Below are positions 2,529 through 9,707 of a stretch of DNA of 9,707 nt, one piece after another; position 1 is the first letter of the stretch; each line of letters begins with the position of its first letter. The notes beneath the pieces are model-generated. The model was not told where the DNA came from. It was given only the letters and a program-made list of their open reading frames with translations, and did not search any database. Source of the DNA: an uncultured Rubrobacteraceae bacterium (GTDB lineage Bacteria; Actinomycetota; Rubrobacteria; Rubrobacterales; Rubrobacteraceae); the NCBI GenBank assembly GCA_902805985.1, contig CADCUW010000627.1, forward strand, positions 1 to 9,707, written 5' to 3'. The translations under genes were made by a program, and so were the position numbers.

Positions 2529-3812
2529 GTGGCAGACAAGGCCTCGGTCCACATCCTCGCGCGCGCCGACGGGTGGGCTGTGGTGCGCGAGGGCAGAGAG
2601 CGGGCCACTTCTGTCCACCCCACCCAGGCGGAGGCGGCTCGGGCGGGACGGGAGATAGCCCGCAAAGACGAGACCGAGTTCCTGCTCCATGCCAGAGACG
2701 GGCACATCCGAGACCGCAGCGACTACGGCGGAAACCTCAGCCGTCCCTCTGCACCGCCGGAAGACGCTACCACCGCTCCCGCGGCCGGCGTAGCAGGCGC
2801 GGCGGCCCGGGAGACGGGCAGGGTGGTAGGCCTTGCCACCGGGACCGTTGGTGGGGCGCTCGACGGAGCCGGGCCAACGGCAACTACTGGCGTAGGCCAA
2901 GATACCAAGGCAGCCCACACAGACAGTAGAACCGACAACGCAGAGGAGGCAAGCGGCTTGGCCTACGAGGAACGGTACGCAGATTACGAAGTCCACGGCC
3001 AGGACGACGAGAGGCTAGGCCACGTCGACGCCCTGTTCATAGACGAGGACGATCAGCCGGAGTACTTAGGCGTGAAGATGGGCCTGCTGGGCACCCGCTC
3101 CACCCTCCTCCCCTGGGCGATGGTAACCCGCGCTGACGAGGAGAGAGGCCGCCTCGAGGTAGACGTGGACAAAGAGACGGCCGCGAACGGCCCCGCCTTC
3201 GAGGACGACCAGGAGATCACGCCGGAGCTGGAGCGCAGGGTTCGCGGCCATTACGGGATCGAACAGGCGGCTGAGGACCGTGGCGCCTACGGCGATTATC
3301 GCGTAGGCGCCGAGAATACTGGCGCGACCGCCGGCCTCGACGCTCTCGGCACGGCGACGGGCGGCACCGCAACCGGCGGGTTGCGCGAGCGCCACGACGA
3401 GAGAGAGGCGTTGAGCCGACACGCAAGCGAACCTGTGGCTGAGGAGGAGATCAGGGTACAAAGGAGCGAAGAGGAGCTCGTCGTCGGGACCCGCGAGCGC
3501 GAAGCCGGATCAATGAAGATCCGTAAGCGCGTTCGCACCGAGCGCGAGAGGCTGGATGTACCCGTCAGGCGGGAGGAGGTGCACATCGAGCGGGTCCCGG
3601 TCTCGGAGGAGACCACCGGGGCGGAGATAGGCGAGGAAGAGGTCGTCGTGCCGGTGACCGAGACCGAGGTGGTGGTCTCCAAAAGGCCCGTAGTCAAGGA
3701 GGAGATCCGTATCCACAAGGAGGTGACGGAGAAGACCGAAGTCCTCGAGGAGGACGTGAGGCGCGAGGAGATAGACGTAGTGGACGAGACCGACCGAAGG
3801 AGGGAAGGATAG
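2529..3812 (+). CDS. DUF2188 - PRC-barrel - DUF2382 (YsnF-like) fusion protein
   Basis: 427 residues from GTG 2529, 3 nt after the preceding stop; an AGGG next to the GTG is a tight ribosome site, so translational coupling is likely. Three domains can be read. Residues 6-67 are DUF2188: D-G-W-A-V-V-R-E-G-R-E-R-A-T-S-V-H, then a helix and L-L-H-A-R-D-G-H-I-R-D-R. Residues 150-222 are a PRC-barrel: Y-E-V-H-G-Q-D-D-E-R-L-G-H-V-D-A-L-F-I-D, then Y-L-G-V-K-M-G-L-L-G and L-L-P-W. Residues 305-421 are the Glu/Arg/Val-rich DUF2382 domain of YsnF-type proteins: E-E-I-R-V-Q-R-S-E-E-E-L-V-V-G through repeated E-E-V-V-V-P-V. A Gly/Ala/Thr-rich linker (80-145) follows DUF2188 and a second one precedes DUF2382. 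PRC-DUF2382 proteins are common stress-associated proteins in actinobacteria without a proven activity. No signal peptide is visible. The CsbD neighbours on both sides support a general-stress operon. Confidence 0.9.
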   Translation: MADKASVHILARADGWAVVREGRERATSVHPTQAEAARAGREIARKDETEFLLHARDGHIRDRSDYGGNLSRPSAPPEDATTAPAAGVAGAAARETGRVVGLATGTVGGALDGAGPTATTGVGQDTKAAHTDSRTDNAEEASGLAYEERYADYEVHGQDDERLGHVDALFIDEDDQPEYLGVKMGLLGTRSTLLPWAMVTRADEERGRLEVDVDKETAANGPAFEDDQEITPELERRVRGHYGIEQAAEDRGAYGDYRVGAENTGATAGLDALGTATGGTATGGLRERHDEREALSRHASEPVAEEEIRVQRSEEELVVGTREREAGSMKIRKRVRTERERLDVPVRREEVHIERVPVSEETTGAEIGEEEVVVPVTETEVVVSKRPVVKEEIRIHKEVTEKTEVLEEDVRREEIDVVDETDRRREG

Positions 3813-5081: not shown

Positions 5082-5537
5082 GTGGGAGAAGAGCCCGAAC
5101 GATCGACGTTGAGCAAGCTGATCTCCGTCCCGGGTTTGGTGGCCGTGGCAATCTTGGGCGTAGCAGTCGCCGCTATGGCCCACTTTTTCGGACCGGGTAA
5201 CGTACTTCGAGAGGTGGCCACGGAAATGGTCGCGAGCTTCGGTAGCACGATACTGGTGCTCGCGGTCTTCGGGTTACTCTTTAGGACTGGACTCGAGCAG
5301 TTGCTGCGCGGTGCACCTGGCGGAGACGCCCTCGCGCAGTCTGTGGAGCGTCTCGAAGGCGTCCTGAACGGCCCTGGTGCACAAGATCTAAAGTCGCTAC
5401 AACCCGAGATCGAGTCCAAATTGGATCTCATCGGGAGGGAGGTGCAGTCCCTTACCGACCGTGAAGTTCCCGCACTAAAGAAAGAGGTAACAGAGCTGCG
5501 TAAGATGCTGGCGGATCTACAAAAACACGCTGATTGA
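5082..5537 (+). CDS. Small membrane protein: two TM helices and a helical/coiled-coil C-terminus
   Basis: GTG 5082 gives 151 residues. GGGAGGG (5061-5067) and AGG (5071-5073) lie upstream; an ATG at 5074 is in another frame and stops after 12 codons. The first 12 residues are polar. Residues about 16-36 (S-V-P-G-L-V-A-V-A-I-L-G-V-A-V-A-A-M) and 47-68 (A-T-E-M-V-A-S-F-G-S-T-I-L-V-L-A-V-F-G-L-L-F) are hydrophobic enough to span the membrane. From about residue 83 to the end the sequence is charged and heptad-like, for example E-S-K-L-D-L-I-G-R-E-V-Q-S-L and L-K-K-E-V-T-E-L-R-K-M-L. A hairpin membrane anchor with a cytoplasmic coiled coil is the likely layout. I do not recognise a family. It converges with the methyltransferase gene, with a 116-nt gap and no clear terminator. 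Confidence 0.7.
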   Translation: MGEEPERSTLSKLISVPGLVAVAILGVAVAAMAHFFGPGNVLREVATEMVASFGSTILVLAVFGLLFRTGLEQLLRGAPGGDALAQSVERLEGVLNGPGAQDLKSLQPEIESKLDLIGREVQSLTDREVPALKKEVTELRKMLADLQKHAD

Positions 5538-5653: not shown

Positions 5654-6292
5654 TCAGCCCGCGGGTTTTCTAGCGACGATCTCCCACAACGTCTTCTCGT
5701 ACCCGTAGCGGCTCGTAGTCATCTCCTGCAAGTCCTCTATCCTCCAGCGTGTGGAGAGCAGCGCTATAACGTCGTCACGGTCGAAGAGGCGCTTCGATGA
5801 GCCTTCTACAAGGTAGAGGTGCGGACCGATCTCCTCTTTGCGTGCGGCTGTATAGTAGGGGTCGCTCGTGGAGTTGAGGCGGGTCAGGAGATGGCCGTCG
5901 GGGACGAGGCAACGCCGGACGTCTTCGAGAATCTCTACGGTCTCTGGCCAGGGGAAGTAGTGCAGGGAGAGGCTGGCGACGATGGCGCCGAAGTGGGCGT
6001 CTGGGAACGGAAGGTCCCGGGTAAGGTCTACGAGTTTAGTCTCGGCCTCCGGCGCCCGCCGTCCGGTGAGCTCCAGCGCCTTCCCCGAGAAGTCCGCGGC
6101 GACGACCTCGAAGCCCCATCGCGAGAGGGAGCGGGCGTCCTCTCCGGCGCCACAGCCGAGATCTAGGACGGGCGCGTCGGCGCCCGTCTCGAGGAGGCTC
6201 CGCCGGCGTTCCAGCCAGGCGTCTTCTCCGCCGGGAACTGTGTCTAGCCGGGAGAAGATCCGGTCCCATTCCTCCCTGATATCCGCGGACAC
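5654..6292 (-). CDS. Class I SAM-dependent methyltransferase
   Basis: 212 residues from GTG 6292, with GGAGG about 9 nt upstream. It starts 6 nt after the GNAT stop, so the two are probably co-transcribed. Motif I is V-L-D-L-G-C-G-A-G-E-D (42-52), followed by V-V-A-A-D-F-S (63-69) with the acidic residue that binds the SAM ribose, then D-L-T-R-D-L-P-F-P-D-A-H-F-G-A-I-V-A-S-L (89-108) and the post-motif strand R-C-L-V-P-D-G-H-L-L-T-R-L-N (127-140). This is the small-molecule Methyltransf_11/25 type. The substrate cannot be read from the sequence. The C-terminal D-L-Q-E-M-T-T-S-R-Y-G-Y-E-K-T-L-W-E-I-V-A-R-K matches a conserved end seen in small bacterial tellurite-resistance-like or generic methyltransferases. 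Confidence 0.88.
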   Translation of the reverse strand: MSADIREEWDRIFSRLDTVPGGEDAWLERRRSLLETGADAPVLDLGCGAGEDARSLSRWGFEVVAADFSGKALELTGRRAPEAETKLVDLTRDLPFPDAHFGAIVASLSLHYFPWPETVEILEDVRRCLVPDGHLLTRLNSTSDPYYTAARKEEIGPHLYLVEGSSKRLFDRDDVIALLSTRWRIEDLQEMTTSRYGYEKTLWEIVARKPAG

Positions 6293-6298
6293 TTCCCG

Positions 6299-6910
6299 CT
6301 ACCTCCCTCGGTTGGTCCCCGGCTCGTCCGGTGGCCCTCCGCTTCTCGACGCTTCCCGGCGCTCCCAGTCGGCCTTCGTGAGGGCGTACTCGACGTCCCC
6401 GTGCTCTTCGCCCTCGATGCGCCATGGCCATTCCTGGTGGAACGTCCGCACGTACGTAAGCCCCGCCTTCTCCATCACGCGGCGGGAGGCCGCGTTGACG
6501 ACCATCGTCTGGGCCACCACGCGCCGCACGCCGAGGTCGATGAAGCCCTTGCGGATCAGGGCGCGAGAGCCCTCTGTGGCGTAGCCCTTTCCCCAGGCGG
6601 AAGGGCGCAGCCGGTAGCCGAGCTCCGCTTCTTCAGGGCCGCGACCTTCCGGCGGGTAGAACTCGAACCACCCGATGAATTCGCGGGTCGCCCTCTCGAT
6701 GGCCGCCCAGACGCCGAACCCCTCGAAACGCCCATAAGCGCGGATGAACCGGGGCAGGGTCTCGGCCCGGATCACGTCGCGGGGCGTCGGCCTGCCGCCG
6801 GTGATAAAGCGCATGACCTCGGGGTCGCCGTCGAGGTCGGCCAGGTCTTCCGCGTCGGCCTCGGTGAACCGGCGCAGGACCAGCCGTTCGGTCTCCAGGA
6901 GTACCCGCAT
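6299..6910 (-). CDS. GNAT family N-acetyltransferase (RimJ/RimL type)
   Basis: 203 residues from ATG 6910, chosen over the upstream in-frame codon at 6937 because GGAGGAG lies 6 nt before it and the protein then starts in the family way, M-R-V-L-L-E-T-E-R-L-V-L-R-R-F. Acetyl-CoA site: L-R-P-S-A-W-G-K-G-Y-A-T-E-G (101-114). Family end: N-A-A-S-R-R-V-M-E-K-A-G-L (139-151), where the Asn and the E-K-x-G-L turn are typical of RimJ/RimL-like enzymes, followed by a strand ending V-E-Y-A-L-T-K-A-D-W. They transfer an acetyl group to amino groups of proteins or small molecules; the substrate is unknown here. The last 20 residues are a Pro/Gly/Arg tail. A 69-nt gap separates it from the J-domain gene upstream, so it may belong to the same transcript. 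Confidence 0.9.
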   Translation of the reverse strand: MRVLLETERLVLRRFTEADAEDLADLDGDPEVMRFITGGRPTPRDVIRAETLPRFIRAYGRFEGFGVWAAIERATREFIGWFEFYPPEGRGPEEAELGYRLRPSAWGKGYATEGSRALIRKGFIDLGVRRVVAQTMVVNAASRRVMEKAGLTYVRTFHQEWPWRIEGEEHGDVEYALTKADWERREASRSGGPPDEPGTNRGR

Positions 6911-6979
6911 CGTCAGCTCCTCCACATGACGGAGCATGCCCGGCGGTCTTCGGGCCGCGGGGCGTTCTCCAGGCTCTCC

Positions 6980-7486
6980 CTAGCGCTTCTTCCGCAGACC
7001 GTGGCGTTCTATGGCGTCGTGGGCGGCGTTGATCTCGGCTGTCACCCTCTCGGCGCGGACGCGCTTATCCGGGTCCGAGAACCTGTCCGGGTGGAACTTC
7101 TTGACGAGGTCCCTGCGCTTGCGGTCCACCTCATCCATCGGTACGCCCGGCACGAGGCCGAGCCTGTCGTAGGCGGAGAGTACGTTCGGGGGGTACTTCA
7201 GCGGCGCGAAGGTTCCGGAGGAGGCCCACCCGGAAGTGCGGTTCCCGAAGCTCTGCCGCTCGCTGCCGCCGGACGTCGTGCCCGAGGAACTCCCGCCTTC
7301 CGCGCGGCGGCGCTCTTCGGCGCGGCGCAACTCTTCCTGCGCGCCGCGGAGGGCGGCCTCGAAGGCGCCCCTGAGGGTCTCGCCGCGCTCGCGGCCGGTG
7401 CGGAGCCGCTCGCGGACGCGCTCGTCCTCCCCGAGGGTCGAGAGAAAGCCGCTGGCCAGGCGCCCGAGGCGGCGCGGGATGCTCAC
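6980..7486 (-). CDS. J-domain protein with C-terminal J-domain (Hsp70 co-chaperone type)
   Basis: 168 residues from GTG 7486. The start overlaps the previous stop by 4 nt (GTGA), so translation is probably coupled; no strong ribosome site is seen. Residues about 102-160 form a J-domain: V-L-S-A-Y-D-R-L-G-L, helix II D-E-V-D-R-K-R-R-D-L-V-K-K-F, the diagnostic H-P-D at 132-134, then helix III A-E-R-V-T-A-E-I-N-A-A-H-D-A-I-E. J-domains stimulate the ATPase of DnaK/Hsp70 through H-P-D. The layout is reversed compared with DnaJ: there is no Gly/Phe region, zinc finger or substrate domain. The N-terminal 65 residues instead form a basic amphipathic or coiled-coil region, followed by a Ser/Gly linker. 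This suits a co-chaperone dedicated to one partner, most simply the PspA-type proteins of the same operon. That partner is inferred. Confidence 0.87.
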   Translation of the reverse strand: MSIPRRLGRLASGFLSTLGEDERVRERLRTGRERGETLRGAFEAALRGAQEELRRAEERRRAEGGSSSGTTSGGSERQSFGNRTSGWASSGTFAPLKYPPNVLSAYDRLGLVPGVPMDEVDRKRRDLVKKFHPDRFSDPDKRVRAERVTAEINAAHDAIERHGLRKKR

Positions 7487-8199
7487 CGCTTGCTATCGTC
7501 CCTGGTGTTCCAGTACTCCTCGGAGTCCGAGAGCGGGCCGGGCTGCCTCAAGACCTGCGTGTCGTCCTCGCCAGCCCCGTCGATGGCCTGGGTATCCTCG
7601 CCGGAGGTACGGATCACCTGCGTCTCGTCGCCCGCGGCGTCTTCGCCCGCGGTGGTCTCCTCGGAAGGCTGCTGGGGCTCCCCGTCCGCCTCATCCTGGG
7701 AGAGGCCGAAGAAGCCGCGCACCATGTCGATGTCCTCAAGGCCCGATTCGGCCTCGTCGATCTTGCGCTCCTGCTCGGCGACGCCCGAGTTGCGGGCCTC
7801 CCGGGCCTTGCGGATCTGGTCTTCGAGGTTGCGGATCACATCTTCCGTGTCGTCCTTGAGCTTGCGGATACGGTTCTCGCTGAGGTCTATCTCGGACTCT
7901 AGCCTTGCCTCGCGCGCCCTGATCGAGGAGTCGAGCTCGTTTATGTCGATGCCCGCCGCCTCGAGCGTCTGGCGCACGATGCGGACCGCCGCCGGACGCG
8001 GCACCTCGGGGGGGAGGTTCTTTATGACCTCGGCCGCCCGCTCCACCGTGAAGGCCCGCGAGTGGGGGCTGGTCTCTCGTTCATTCTGACCGTCCGCGCC
8101 TATCTCCGCGCGGGAGTAGATCGAGGTCCCCTCGTTCGCCTCCTGCTCCCTGAACATCCGGGTGAAAAAGTTCTGCCGGTTGGTGCGATCCTCGCTCAT
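7483..8199 (-). CDS. Coiled-coil protein with three acidic-T-Q-hydrophobic motifs, unknown family
   Basis: 238 residues from ATG 8199. The start overlaps the previous stop (ATGA) and GGAGAGG lies about 11 nt upstream. Residues 50-90 look globular and helical (V-E-R-A-A-E-V-I-K-N-L-P-P-E-V, R-P-A-A-V-R-I-V-R-Q-T-L-E-A-A-G-I-D). Residues 90-155 form a long coiled coil with regular heptads (L-E-S-E-I-D-L-S-E-N-R-I-R-K-L-K-D-D). From 165 the chain is acidic and probably disordered, and repeats G-D-E-T-Q-V-I-R, G-E-D-T-Q-A-I-D and E-D-D-T-Q-V-L-R (Thr 193, 203, 214). Acidic residues before a Thr and a hydrophobic residue after it recall the phosphothreonine site of GarA-type proteins read by FHA domains. 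No TM helix or signal peptide is visible. I do not recognise a family; position ties it to PspA and the J-domain protein. Confidence 0.8.
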   Translation of the reverse strand: MSEDRTNRQNFFTRMFREQEANEGTSIYSRAEIGADGQNERETSPHSRAFTVERAAEVIKNLPPEVPRPAAVRIVRQTLEAAGIDINELDSSIRAREARLESEIDLSENRIRKLKDDTEDVIRNLEDQIRKAREARNSGVAEQERKIDEAESGLEDIDMVRGFFGLSQDEADGEPQQPSEETTAGEDAAGDETQVIRTSGEDTQAIDGAGEDDTQVLRQPGPLSDSEEYWNTRDDSKR

Positions 8200-8984
8200 C
8201 TGGCCGCCATCCTCTCCGTAGCGGGCAACGACTCCACGCTCCTTGTGACCTCGTCCAGGCCGCGCCTGAAGTATGCGACCCTCTCCTTTAGCTGCTGCAG
8301 ACCGGGGTCAAGGGAGCCGGGTGATAACCTGTTGTCGACCGCGAGCAGCTCGCCCCGCAGGTTGCCGAGCAGGCTCTCGGCGCTCTCCAGCTGGGCGTTG
8401 ATCATGCTGATGCCGTCCAGTATGTCCCCGTACCCGTCGAGCTCGCCCCGCCTGCCCTCCAGCGCCGCCTCGAACGGCGCCCGCAGCGGCGAGTCCTCCG
8501 GGAGCCGGGCGAGGTCTCTCTCGAGCCCCTTGATGCGGTTCGAGATCCCTCGCCGGTCGACGCTCTCCAGATGCCGCCGCAAGAGCGCCCGACGCCGCGC
8601 GAGCCTCGCGGCATCCCCCACCTCCCCGACGATGGTGAAGATGTCCTCGTCGAGCAGCGGCCTGTACGCCTCGGGCAAGAGCTCCCAGCTCTCAAGGATG
8701 CCGGACTGCAGCGCCGCCAGACGATTGGTCTGGGGTGCGGCCAGCCGGTCCTCGCGGGCCACCCGCCCGAGCTCCTTCACGTTCTCCCGCACCTGGCGCG
8801 AGAGCTCCCGACGTGCGTTCGCCCGCCGGTCCAGGAGACGCTTTCCCGAGAATACGGCGCCCGCGCCGAAGAGGCCGGCGAGCAGGTAGCTCGGGTCGGA
8901 GCCTGTCGCGGCCAGCGCGGCCAGGCCCGAGAACGACCCGAAGGGGACGAGCCTCATCAGGTGCCGGGAGAGTCCGCTAGGCAC
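8196..8984 (-). CDS. Membrane-hairpin plus coiled-coil protein in the pspA operon (PspM-like layout)
   Basis: 262 residues from GTG 8984, with GGAGGAAGG about 6 nt upstream; the start overlaps the pspA stop by 8 nt. Two short hydrophobic stretches lie near the N-terminus, about 11-27 (R-L-V-P-F-G-S-F-S-G-L-A-A-L-A-A-T) and 32-47 (S-Y-L-L-A-G-L-F-G-A-G-A-V-F-S-G), consistent with a re-entrant or two-TM hairpin. The rest is almost all charged helix: R-Q-V-R-E-N-V-K-E-L-G-R-V-A-R-E-D-R, a middle domain around 100-130, and coiled-coil segments at 135-165 and 190-255. Mycobacterial PspM, encoded next to pspA, has a similar size and an N-terminal membrane part; I see the same architecture and position but no recognisable sequence signature. 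A membrane docking partner for PspA is the likely role, as an inference. Confidence 0.78.
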   Translation of the reverse strand: MPSGLSRHLMRLVPFGSFSGLAALAATGSDPSYLLAGLFGAGAVFSGKRLLDRRANARRELSRQVRENVKELGRVAREDRLAAPQTNRLAALQSGILESWELLPEAYRPLLDEDIFTIVGEVGDAARLARRRALLRRHLESVDRRGISNRIKGLERDLARLPEDSPLRAPFEAALEGRRGELDGYGDILDGISMINAQLESAESLLGNLRGELLAVDNRLSPGSLDPGLQQLKERVAYFRRGLDEVTRSVESLPATERMAAR

Positions 8985-9707
8985 GGGGGCCTTCCTCCGG
9001 TCTCTCGGGCTCGGCGGGCGTTCCTTCCGGGGCCGCTATCTGTTCGGGTTCGCGCAGGCCCATCTCTATCTCCATCATCTCGAGTTCGTGCTCGGCGTCC
9101 AGGCGCTTGATGTCTATCTCGGCGGCGGCGATCTGGCGCTCCGTCTCGCTGGTACCGAGCTCGCCGACGGCCTCGGCTTCGTAGGAGGCCTGGCGGATGG
9201 ACTGGCGGGCCTTCTCCAAATCCCTACTGGAGTCGGAGAGGGAGATCTGGGCGCGCGCGTCGTTGGCGGTGCGCAGCGCGCGGGCGCGCTGGTGCTCCTC
9301 CATGAGGGCGGCCCGCTCTCGCGCGACGTCGTTGTAGCGGCGCTCCTGGTCGCGGAAGGCCCGCTCCATCTCCTGGGAGTTCTTGCGCGCCTCCTCCAGC
9401 CTGGCCTCTATGTCGACGAGCTGAGTCTGGGCCTCCTGCTTCTGCTGGACCACCTCGACGGCGGCGTCGCGCTGGCCGCGGGCGGCGAGCTCGCGAGCCT
9501 GGCGCTCCTTGACGGCGAGAACCTTCTGTTTGCCCGCGGCGTCGTTGGCGAGCATCTTCTCGTAGGCCATCGTGCGGGCTGCGGCCACCTGGAGCTTCTT
9601 GAGGTTCTCGAGCTCGTCCTGCACGGCGTTCTCGAGCAGTATCTCGGGGTTGCGCTGCTCGACCCCCGAGAGAAACTTCCCGAAAAAGCCGCGGATCGCC
9701 CTGGTTA
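8977..9707 (-). CDS. pspA: PspA/Vipp1 (IM30) family protein, 5' end off window
   Basis: The frame ends at TAG 8977-8979 and runs open off the right edge; the GTG at 9624 is internal, because the 27 codons before it are clearly family sequence (I-R-G-F-F-G-K-F-L-S-G-V-E-Q-R-N-P-E-I-L, then L-E-N-A-V-Q-D-E-L). That matches the PspA N-terminus: an amphipathic membrane-binding helix followed by the P-E-x-x-L-x-x-A-x-x-x-x-x-x-x-L segment. The rest is one long helical coiled coil with the expected R-Q-A-R-E-L-A-A-R-G-Q-R-D-A-A linker, and ends in an acidic Pro/Glu tail. PspA/Vipp1 proteins are ESCRT-III relatives that assemble on stressed membranes and stop proton leakage. At least 242 residues are visible, near full length. 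It is the first visible gene of a four-gene overlapping operon. Confidence 0.88.
   Translation of the reverse strand, partial: TRAIRGFFGKFLSGVEQRNPEILLENAVQDELENLKKLQVAAARTMAYEKMLANDAAGKQKVLAVKERQARELAARGQRDAAVEVVQQKQEAQTQLVDIEARLEEARKNSQEMERAFRDQERRYNDVARERAALMEEHQRARALRTANDARAQISLSDSSRDLEKARQSIRQASYEAEAVGELGTSETERQIAAAEIDIKRLDAEHELEMMEIEMGLREPEQIAAPEGTPAEPERPEEGPRA

Follow-up and report, generated by a model that had tools for sequence, protein, structure and literature searches.

At the end of a 9,707-nucleotide stretch of DNA from an uncultured Rubrobacteraceae bacterium (contig CADCUW010000627.1, here C627, in a fragmented assembly of 707 contigs; hereafter the window), four genes on the minus strand (6980-9707) make up a single PspA module of overlapping genes, conserved in the Rubrobacter family. 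They encode, in order, the ESCRT-III superfamily protein PspA, two proteins that we call P2 and P3, and a J-domain protein (J-protein), and they overlap by 8, 4 and 4 nucleotides. The arrangement is a lineage-wide variant of the phage shock protein (PSP) system with an in-operon J-protein, whose function, as we propose below, may be to bring the housekeeping Hsp70, DnaK, to PspA polymers on the membrane. Three features are new here: a TATAAT box before pspA, TQ motifs with an invariant threonine in the tail of P3, and an N-terminus of the J-protein that resembles that of PspA. Throughout the family a gene for a J-protein is coupled to pspA, which points to an Hsp70 answer to how bacterial PspA polymers are disassembled and offers a compact four-protein system in which disassembly can be tested in vitro. 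If the proposal is right, chloroplast VIPP1 with HSP70B and CDJ2 would be one case of a wider principle and not a chloroplast speciality.

Gene order and distribution

The four genes and the elements within them lie in the window as follows.

8977..9707, minus strand: pspA (PspA/IM30, ESCRT-III superfamily; Pfam PF04012), 5' end cut by the contig end
9658..9705, minus strand: N-terminal amphipathic helix of PspA (alpha0-like), TRAIRGFFGKFLSGVE, from sequence and hydrophobic moment
8977..8984, minus strand: 8-nucleotide overlap of pspA and P2 (GTGCCTAG); overlapping in 23/29 loci, a count that depends on the start-codon rule applied
8196..8984, minus strand: P2, 262 amino acids, helical domain preceded by a hydrophobic stretch at the N-terminus, no known family
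8835..8960, minus strand: P2 residues 9-50, membrane hairpin predicted with low confidence from hydrophobicity and AlphaFold2
8196..8199, minus strand: 4-nucleotide overlap of P2 and P3 (ATGA); 4 nucleotides in 24/29 loci
7483..8199, minus strand: P3, 238 amino acids, N-terminal FFxRxF motif, small helical domain, long helix and acidic tail, no known family
8149..8178, minus strand: N-terminal motif RQNFFTRMFR of P3, resembling RGFFGRF of PspA (profile match, p=0.004 by column permutation)
7708..7944, minus strand: 79-residue predicted helix of P3, residues 86-164 (AlphaFold2, predicted local distance difference test (pLDDT) mostly above 90)
7612..7629, minus strand: P3 tail motif DETQVI, from sequence
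7582..7599, minus strand: P3 tail motif EDTQAI, from sequence
7549..7566, minus strand: P3 tail motif DDTQVL, threonine invariant in the alignment of 29/29 orthologs
7483..7486, minus strand: 4-nucleotide overlap of P3 and the J-protein gene (GTGA); 4 nucleotides in 25/27 loci, a count that omits two loci with the J-protein N-terminus SLGRR, both kept in the 29-row J-protein alignment
6980..7486, minus strand: J-protein, 168 amino acids, J-domain C-terminal; 29/29 orthologs match PF00226 (E<=0.001)
7427..7486, minus strand: conserved N-terminal cationic amphipathic helix of the J-protein, SIPRRLGRLASGFLSTL, from the moment
6998..7174, minus strand: J-domain, residues 105-163 (profile match)
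7085..7093, minus strand: HPD motif, invariant in 29/29 orthologs

The gene boundaries at 8984/8977, 8199/8196 and 7486/7483 agree with those in a preliminary description of this DNA, which had also named, in advance, a gene order not kept even in close relatives as one of two outcomes that would refute its reading. The reading passes this test: we find the order pspA-P2-P3-J and the strand to be identical in 27/27 four-gene loci from 12 genera (31 fetched loci and the window make 32; contig ends cut 5 of these, leaving 26 and the window). Because the gene that follows the J-protein gene varies among loci (7 protein clusters and singletons), it is the block of four genes that is held together, and not just the region around it.

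Across the phylum, 396 genomes yielded P3 in 32, comprising 32/39 genomes of the family and 0/357 outside it; P2 was present in 31 of 60 genomes (31/36 of its own family, 0/24 outside). The operon-type J-protein (E below 1e-15) is present in 32/39 family genomes, and pspA, with a single match each, in 35/39. When the family is restricted to its 22 near-complete genomes (at least 90% completeness, at most 5% contamination), pspA, P3 and the J-protein are found in 22/22; the genomes without pspA or without the operon-type J-protein all fall outside this set. In a pattern scan of one genome per species with two short peptide patterns, which was not exhaustive, we found 22 loci with P2 relatives, titled Rubrobacter, Rubrobacteraceae or Actinobacteria/actinobacterium/Actinomycetota and including R. 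marinus.

We examined the linkage of J-proteins to pspA within the same phylum, in 40 genomes from 39 other families (one genome per family, two for one family, and one pspA copy per genome among the matches listed). The Pfam J-domain model found J-proteins in 40/40 of these genomes, and in 0/40 did a J-domain lie within 10 kb of the examined pspA; the closest, in G043, was 10.7 kb away. A J-protein profile built from the family matched 0/40 stretches around these pspA genes versus 28/31 Rubrobacteraceae loci, the three missed loci being cut by contig ends. Among the open-access papers listed as matches, none is by its title about an operon of PspA and a J-protein. The accessible text of PMC9239133 mentions neither DnaJ, nor a J-domain, nor Rubrobacter, and in that of PMC6544083, on Rubrobacter, PspA appears only within a table of indels.

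The four proteins and the pspA promoter

The PspA of the window scores 46.2 bits against PspA_IM30 (PF04012), above the curated cut-off of 33.9 bits, and 30/30 PspA orthologs match the same model (E<=0.001). Positions 3-201 of its 250-position profile align with 7o3w, a solved structure of Vipp1 (E=5.4e-6). The frame stays open up to the contig end and the first in-window start codon (9624) is internal; in the close relative G003 the start reads MGRLTRAIRGFF / MGRLTRAIRGFFGKFLSGVE. The N-terminal helix has a hydrophobic moment of 0.65 (29 orthologs). The Rubrobacter PspA is divergent, and its profile missed most pspA genes of other actinobacterial loci.

J-proteins work by recruiting an Hsp70 to a client, and the protein of the module, which has a J-domain with the HPD motif, may stimulate an Hsp70 ATPase. 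A DnaK gene is present in 8/8 genomes tested; it is full length in 7, and the draft assembly to which the window belongs has a fragment of its C-terminal part. At its other end, the J-protein begins with a helix whose consensus, MSIPRRLGRLARGFVS, has a moment of 0.69 (shuffled sequences 0.30, 95th percentile 0.57) and which aligns with RLTRAIRGFFGR of PspA (p=0.015). The preliminary description had recognised a PspA-family protein and, in the same operon, its own J-protein with a C-terminal J-domain; both identifications stand, and the J-protein is distinct from the genomes' other J-domain genes.

P2 and P3 match no recognised family, as had been supposed: neither finds a match above the curated cut-offs of Pfam or NCBIfam (for P3, weak coiled-coil matches, best E 0.002, fall below them), and neither AlphaFold2 model has a significant fold match. 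The model of P2 is all-helical with a mean pLDDT of 77. The membrane hairpin that had been suggested for P2 is less secure. A hydrophobic stretch lies within the first 90 residues of 28/28 orthologs (an alignment that omits three partial copies), but at the threshold used it resolves into two separate segments in 10/28 and into one in the other 18, and AlphaFold2 models it with low confidence.

For P3, AlphaFold2 models a small helical domain, then the long helix and then a tail of low confidence. The N-terminal segment KGFFSRMFG aligns with RGFFGRFLS of PspA (p=0.004). The tail carries motifs of the type acidic-acidic-T-Q/R-V/I-hydrophobic, a pattern defined after the alignment had been viewed, in 27/29 orthologs (50 matches; shuffled tails give a mean of 0.1 and at most 2 in 500 rounds). 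At least two such motifs are present in 120/120 P3 homologs listed, of 1432, and 402 other proteins encoded in the loci have no such motif. The shape of the motif recalls threonines that Ser/Thr kinases phosphorylate and to which FHA domains bind; genes with FHA and Pkinase domains are present in 8/8 genomes. A stretch of similar shape, GQTRIF, stands in the linker ahead of the FHA domain in FhaA-like proteins (L173, L174 and L175).

Ahead of pspA, a TATAAT box starts 40-75 nucleotides before the start codon in 29/29 loci, with TG immediately ahead of it in 26/29; the corresponding position of the window lies past the contig end. At the same place, TATAAT is found in 2/387 other called genes, a control that includes genes inside operons, and in 76/20000 random windows. 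The box looks like a constitutive-type promoter, which would differ from psp systems under PspF or ClgR control. Because the promoter looks constitutive, control of the module would be post-translational; this PSP variant is probably constitutive and post-translationally controlled.

Further upstream, a conserved gene precedes pspA in 28/29 loci that reach there (for example L032:9849-10829:-); in the window it is invisible because the contig ends. Its product has 4-7 hydrophobic segments and ends in a degenerate GGDEF-like region, recognised on visual inspection and, in 2/25, from a weak match to Pfam (E<=0.1, best 0.0031), in an alignment of 25 members that leaves out three of the 28. It is possibly a membrane sensor. 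In many loci (L038, L039, L055 and others) a stand-alone degenerate GGDEF-like protein or a member of a lipoprotein family is also encoded near the operon, upstream of pspA.

Proposed turnover of PspA by DnaK

We propose that this conserved PspA module includes a J-protein that recruits housekeeping DnaK to membrane PspA polymers and thereby drives their ATP-dependent disassembly, a reading that we hold to have about an even chance of being correct. PspA would use its N-terminal helix to coat the cytoplasmic membrane. P2, with its predicted membrane hairpin and helical domain, may anchor or dock this coat, and P3, with its FFxRxF start and predicted 79-residue helix, may serve as a rod-like adaptor that bridges it. 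A PspA-like amphipathic N-terminus would bring the J-protein to this surface as well, with its C-terminal J-domain offered to DnaK in an auxilin-like layout, the J-domain of auxilin also being C-terminal. DnaK would then take the PspA polymers apart, in the way that CDJ2/HSP70B acts on VIPP1 in the chloroplast. The likeliest switch would be phosphorylation of the P3 threonines by a Ser/Thr kinase, followed by FHA binding. The contacts among the proteins, the DnaK step and the phospho-control are all inferred; what suggests a coat-directed co-chaperone role, at the level of sequence, is the J-domain together with the N-terminal helix and the linkage in the operon. The module had been called a self-contained membrane-repair machine; a role in membrane repair would be conjecture, and "self-contained" overstates the case, given that the DnaK gene lies outside the operon and that a gene for a conserved membrane protein stands upstream. 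A more elaborate version, in which an ESCRT-III coat comes with an operon-encoded auxilin-like uncoating factor that rides in on a look-alike of the PspA helix, a phospho-gated P3 rod times the entry of DnaK, and Hsp70 does the work done by Vps4 in eukaryotes, strikes us as possible yet doubtful.

One of the closest likenesses is to the VIPP1/HSP70B/CDJ2/CGE1 system of the Chlamydomonas chloroplast, in which a J-protein supplies a PspA-superfamily polymer to Hsp70, a relation established there and inferred here. HSP70B, CDJ2 and CGE1 carry out both assembly and disassembly of VIPP1 in vitro (PMC10602608), Hsp70/DnaK and CDJ2 are described in a 2026 paper as early-found partners of Vipp1 (PMC13051332), and Vipp1 of Synechocystis binds DnaK2 (PMC4297356). 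By contrast with the Rubrobacter module, the Chlamydomonas system is eukaryotic and without an operon, and the accessible text of its sources describes nothing P2- or P3-like; unlike CDJ2, the Rubrobacter J-protein is short, has a C-terminal J-domain and is encoded beside pspA. Auxilin, which brings Hsc70 to clathrin for uncoating (PMC4436892), is likewise a coat-directed J-protein that brings Hsp70 to a membrane polymer, although coat and membrane are different and we claim no sequence relation. CDJ2 and auxilin appear to be the nearest functional analogues of the J-protein, with no membership claimed. Operons that link pspA to other chaperone-like or remodelling partners (AAA+, CesT/Tir, band-7 or TPM) are described by Ravi et al. 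2024 (PMC11237479), the main text of which, however, mentions no DnaJ, J-domain or Rubrobacter.

The mycobacterial ClgR-PspA-PspM-PspN operon, to which the preliminary description had likened the module, is similar in architecture: an actinobacterial pspA is followed by a gene for a protein of about 270 amino acids with a hydrophobic region in its N-terminal half. That part of the parallel survives, but the part that would require homology does not. Compared by hhalign with 12 PspM-like proteins (from 12/16 loci, encoded right after pspA in probable mycobacterial relatives and assigned by position and hydrophobic segments), P2 reaches a homology probability of 0.8-1.4%, and by sequence it is not PspM (Rv2743c). 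Ten of the 12 have two hydrophobic segments and 2 have one; P2 shares the place directly after pspA, and its orthologs, as noted, show two segments in 10/28 and one in the other 18. P3 and the J-protein are not PspN, because none of the four proteins matches DUF3046 at E<=1. Unlike the mycobacterial operon, the Rubrobacter operon includes a J-protein; no ClgR-like gene was seen in the Rubrobacter-family loci.

Several observations weigh against the proposed DnaK-driven disassembly or against parts of it. The J-domain of the window falls under the Pfam cut-off (24.0 vs 27.8 bits), and the P2 residues assigned to the hairpin lie in a region (1-50) with a pLDDT of 41-58. The N-terminal similarities are short (12-13 columns) and have modest p-values from three comparisons; that between the J-protein and P3 is not significant (p=0.19), and the N-terminal segment of P3 is not amphipathic by moment (0.26). 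For the phospho-switch, the after-the-fact definition of the TQ pattern counts against it, as does the absence of the exact motif from the 9 FHA-protein frames examined. The accessible text of PMC5845002 gives three of eight mycobacterial phospho-motifs, and only Glu-X-X-Thr among them fits, at the last site of the window P3. What is least certain about the mechanism is whether the reaction runs towards disassembly: since CDJ2/HSP70B also assembles VIPP1, disassembly is not the sole possible direction. Nor is operon linkage needed for function, because Vipp1 meets DnaK in Synechocystis, for which we know of no such operon.

In a rival account, the J-protein and DnaK act as an assembly or holding chaperone that keeps PspA, P2 or P3 loadable or builds the coat, while disassembly is passive. 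Catalysis of VIPP1 assembly by HSP70B/CDJ2/CGE1 (PMC10602608) speaks for it, and the overlapping genes fit co-assembly; the amphipathic N-terminus of the J-protein, however, would sit at the finished coat, where it fits turnover better. That point is not decisive, and we consider the assembly account unlikely.

The features of P3 and of the upstream gene could instead be read as those of a sensor of stress. Misfolded membrane proteins would titrate DnaK away from the J-protein and P3, the phospho-motifs of P3 would relay the signal, PspA would be the effector, and turnover would be secondary. The conserved TQ motifs, the presence of FHA and kinase genes, and the upstream membrane protein with its degenerate GGDEF-like end in 28/29 loci all suit such a sensor, but the four-gene set is without a DNA-binding regulator and the promoter looks constitutive; we regard the sensor as quite unlikely. 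A J-protein with an unrelated client, present in the operon as a frozen accident of one lineage, would agree with the finding of the arrangement in one bacterial family only but is improbable, for the order is kept in 12 genera and the 4-nucleotide overlaps mostly too while the downstream genes change, and accidents would be expected to break in at least some genera.

Neighbouring genes

After the J-protein gene, on the same minus strand (5654-6937), the window carries genes for a GNAT acetyltransferase and an S-adenosylmethionine (SAM) methyltransferase, an arrangement found in part of the genus; other genes stand there elsewhere. On the plus strand, 5082-5537 encodes a small protein of no family that has a hydrophobic stretch at its N-terminus and ends in a coiled-coil-like region; in L035, a piece with 72% identity to it is found close to the operon. 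Also on the plus strand, 2529-3812 encodes a protein with DUF2188, PRC-barrel and DUF2382 (YsnF/AvaK) domains, adjoining a small Lys/Glu-rich protein at 2229-2525.

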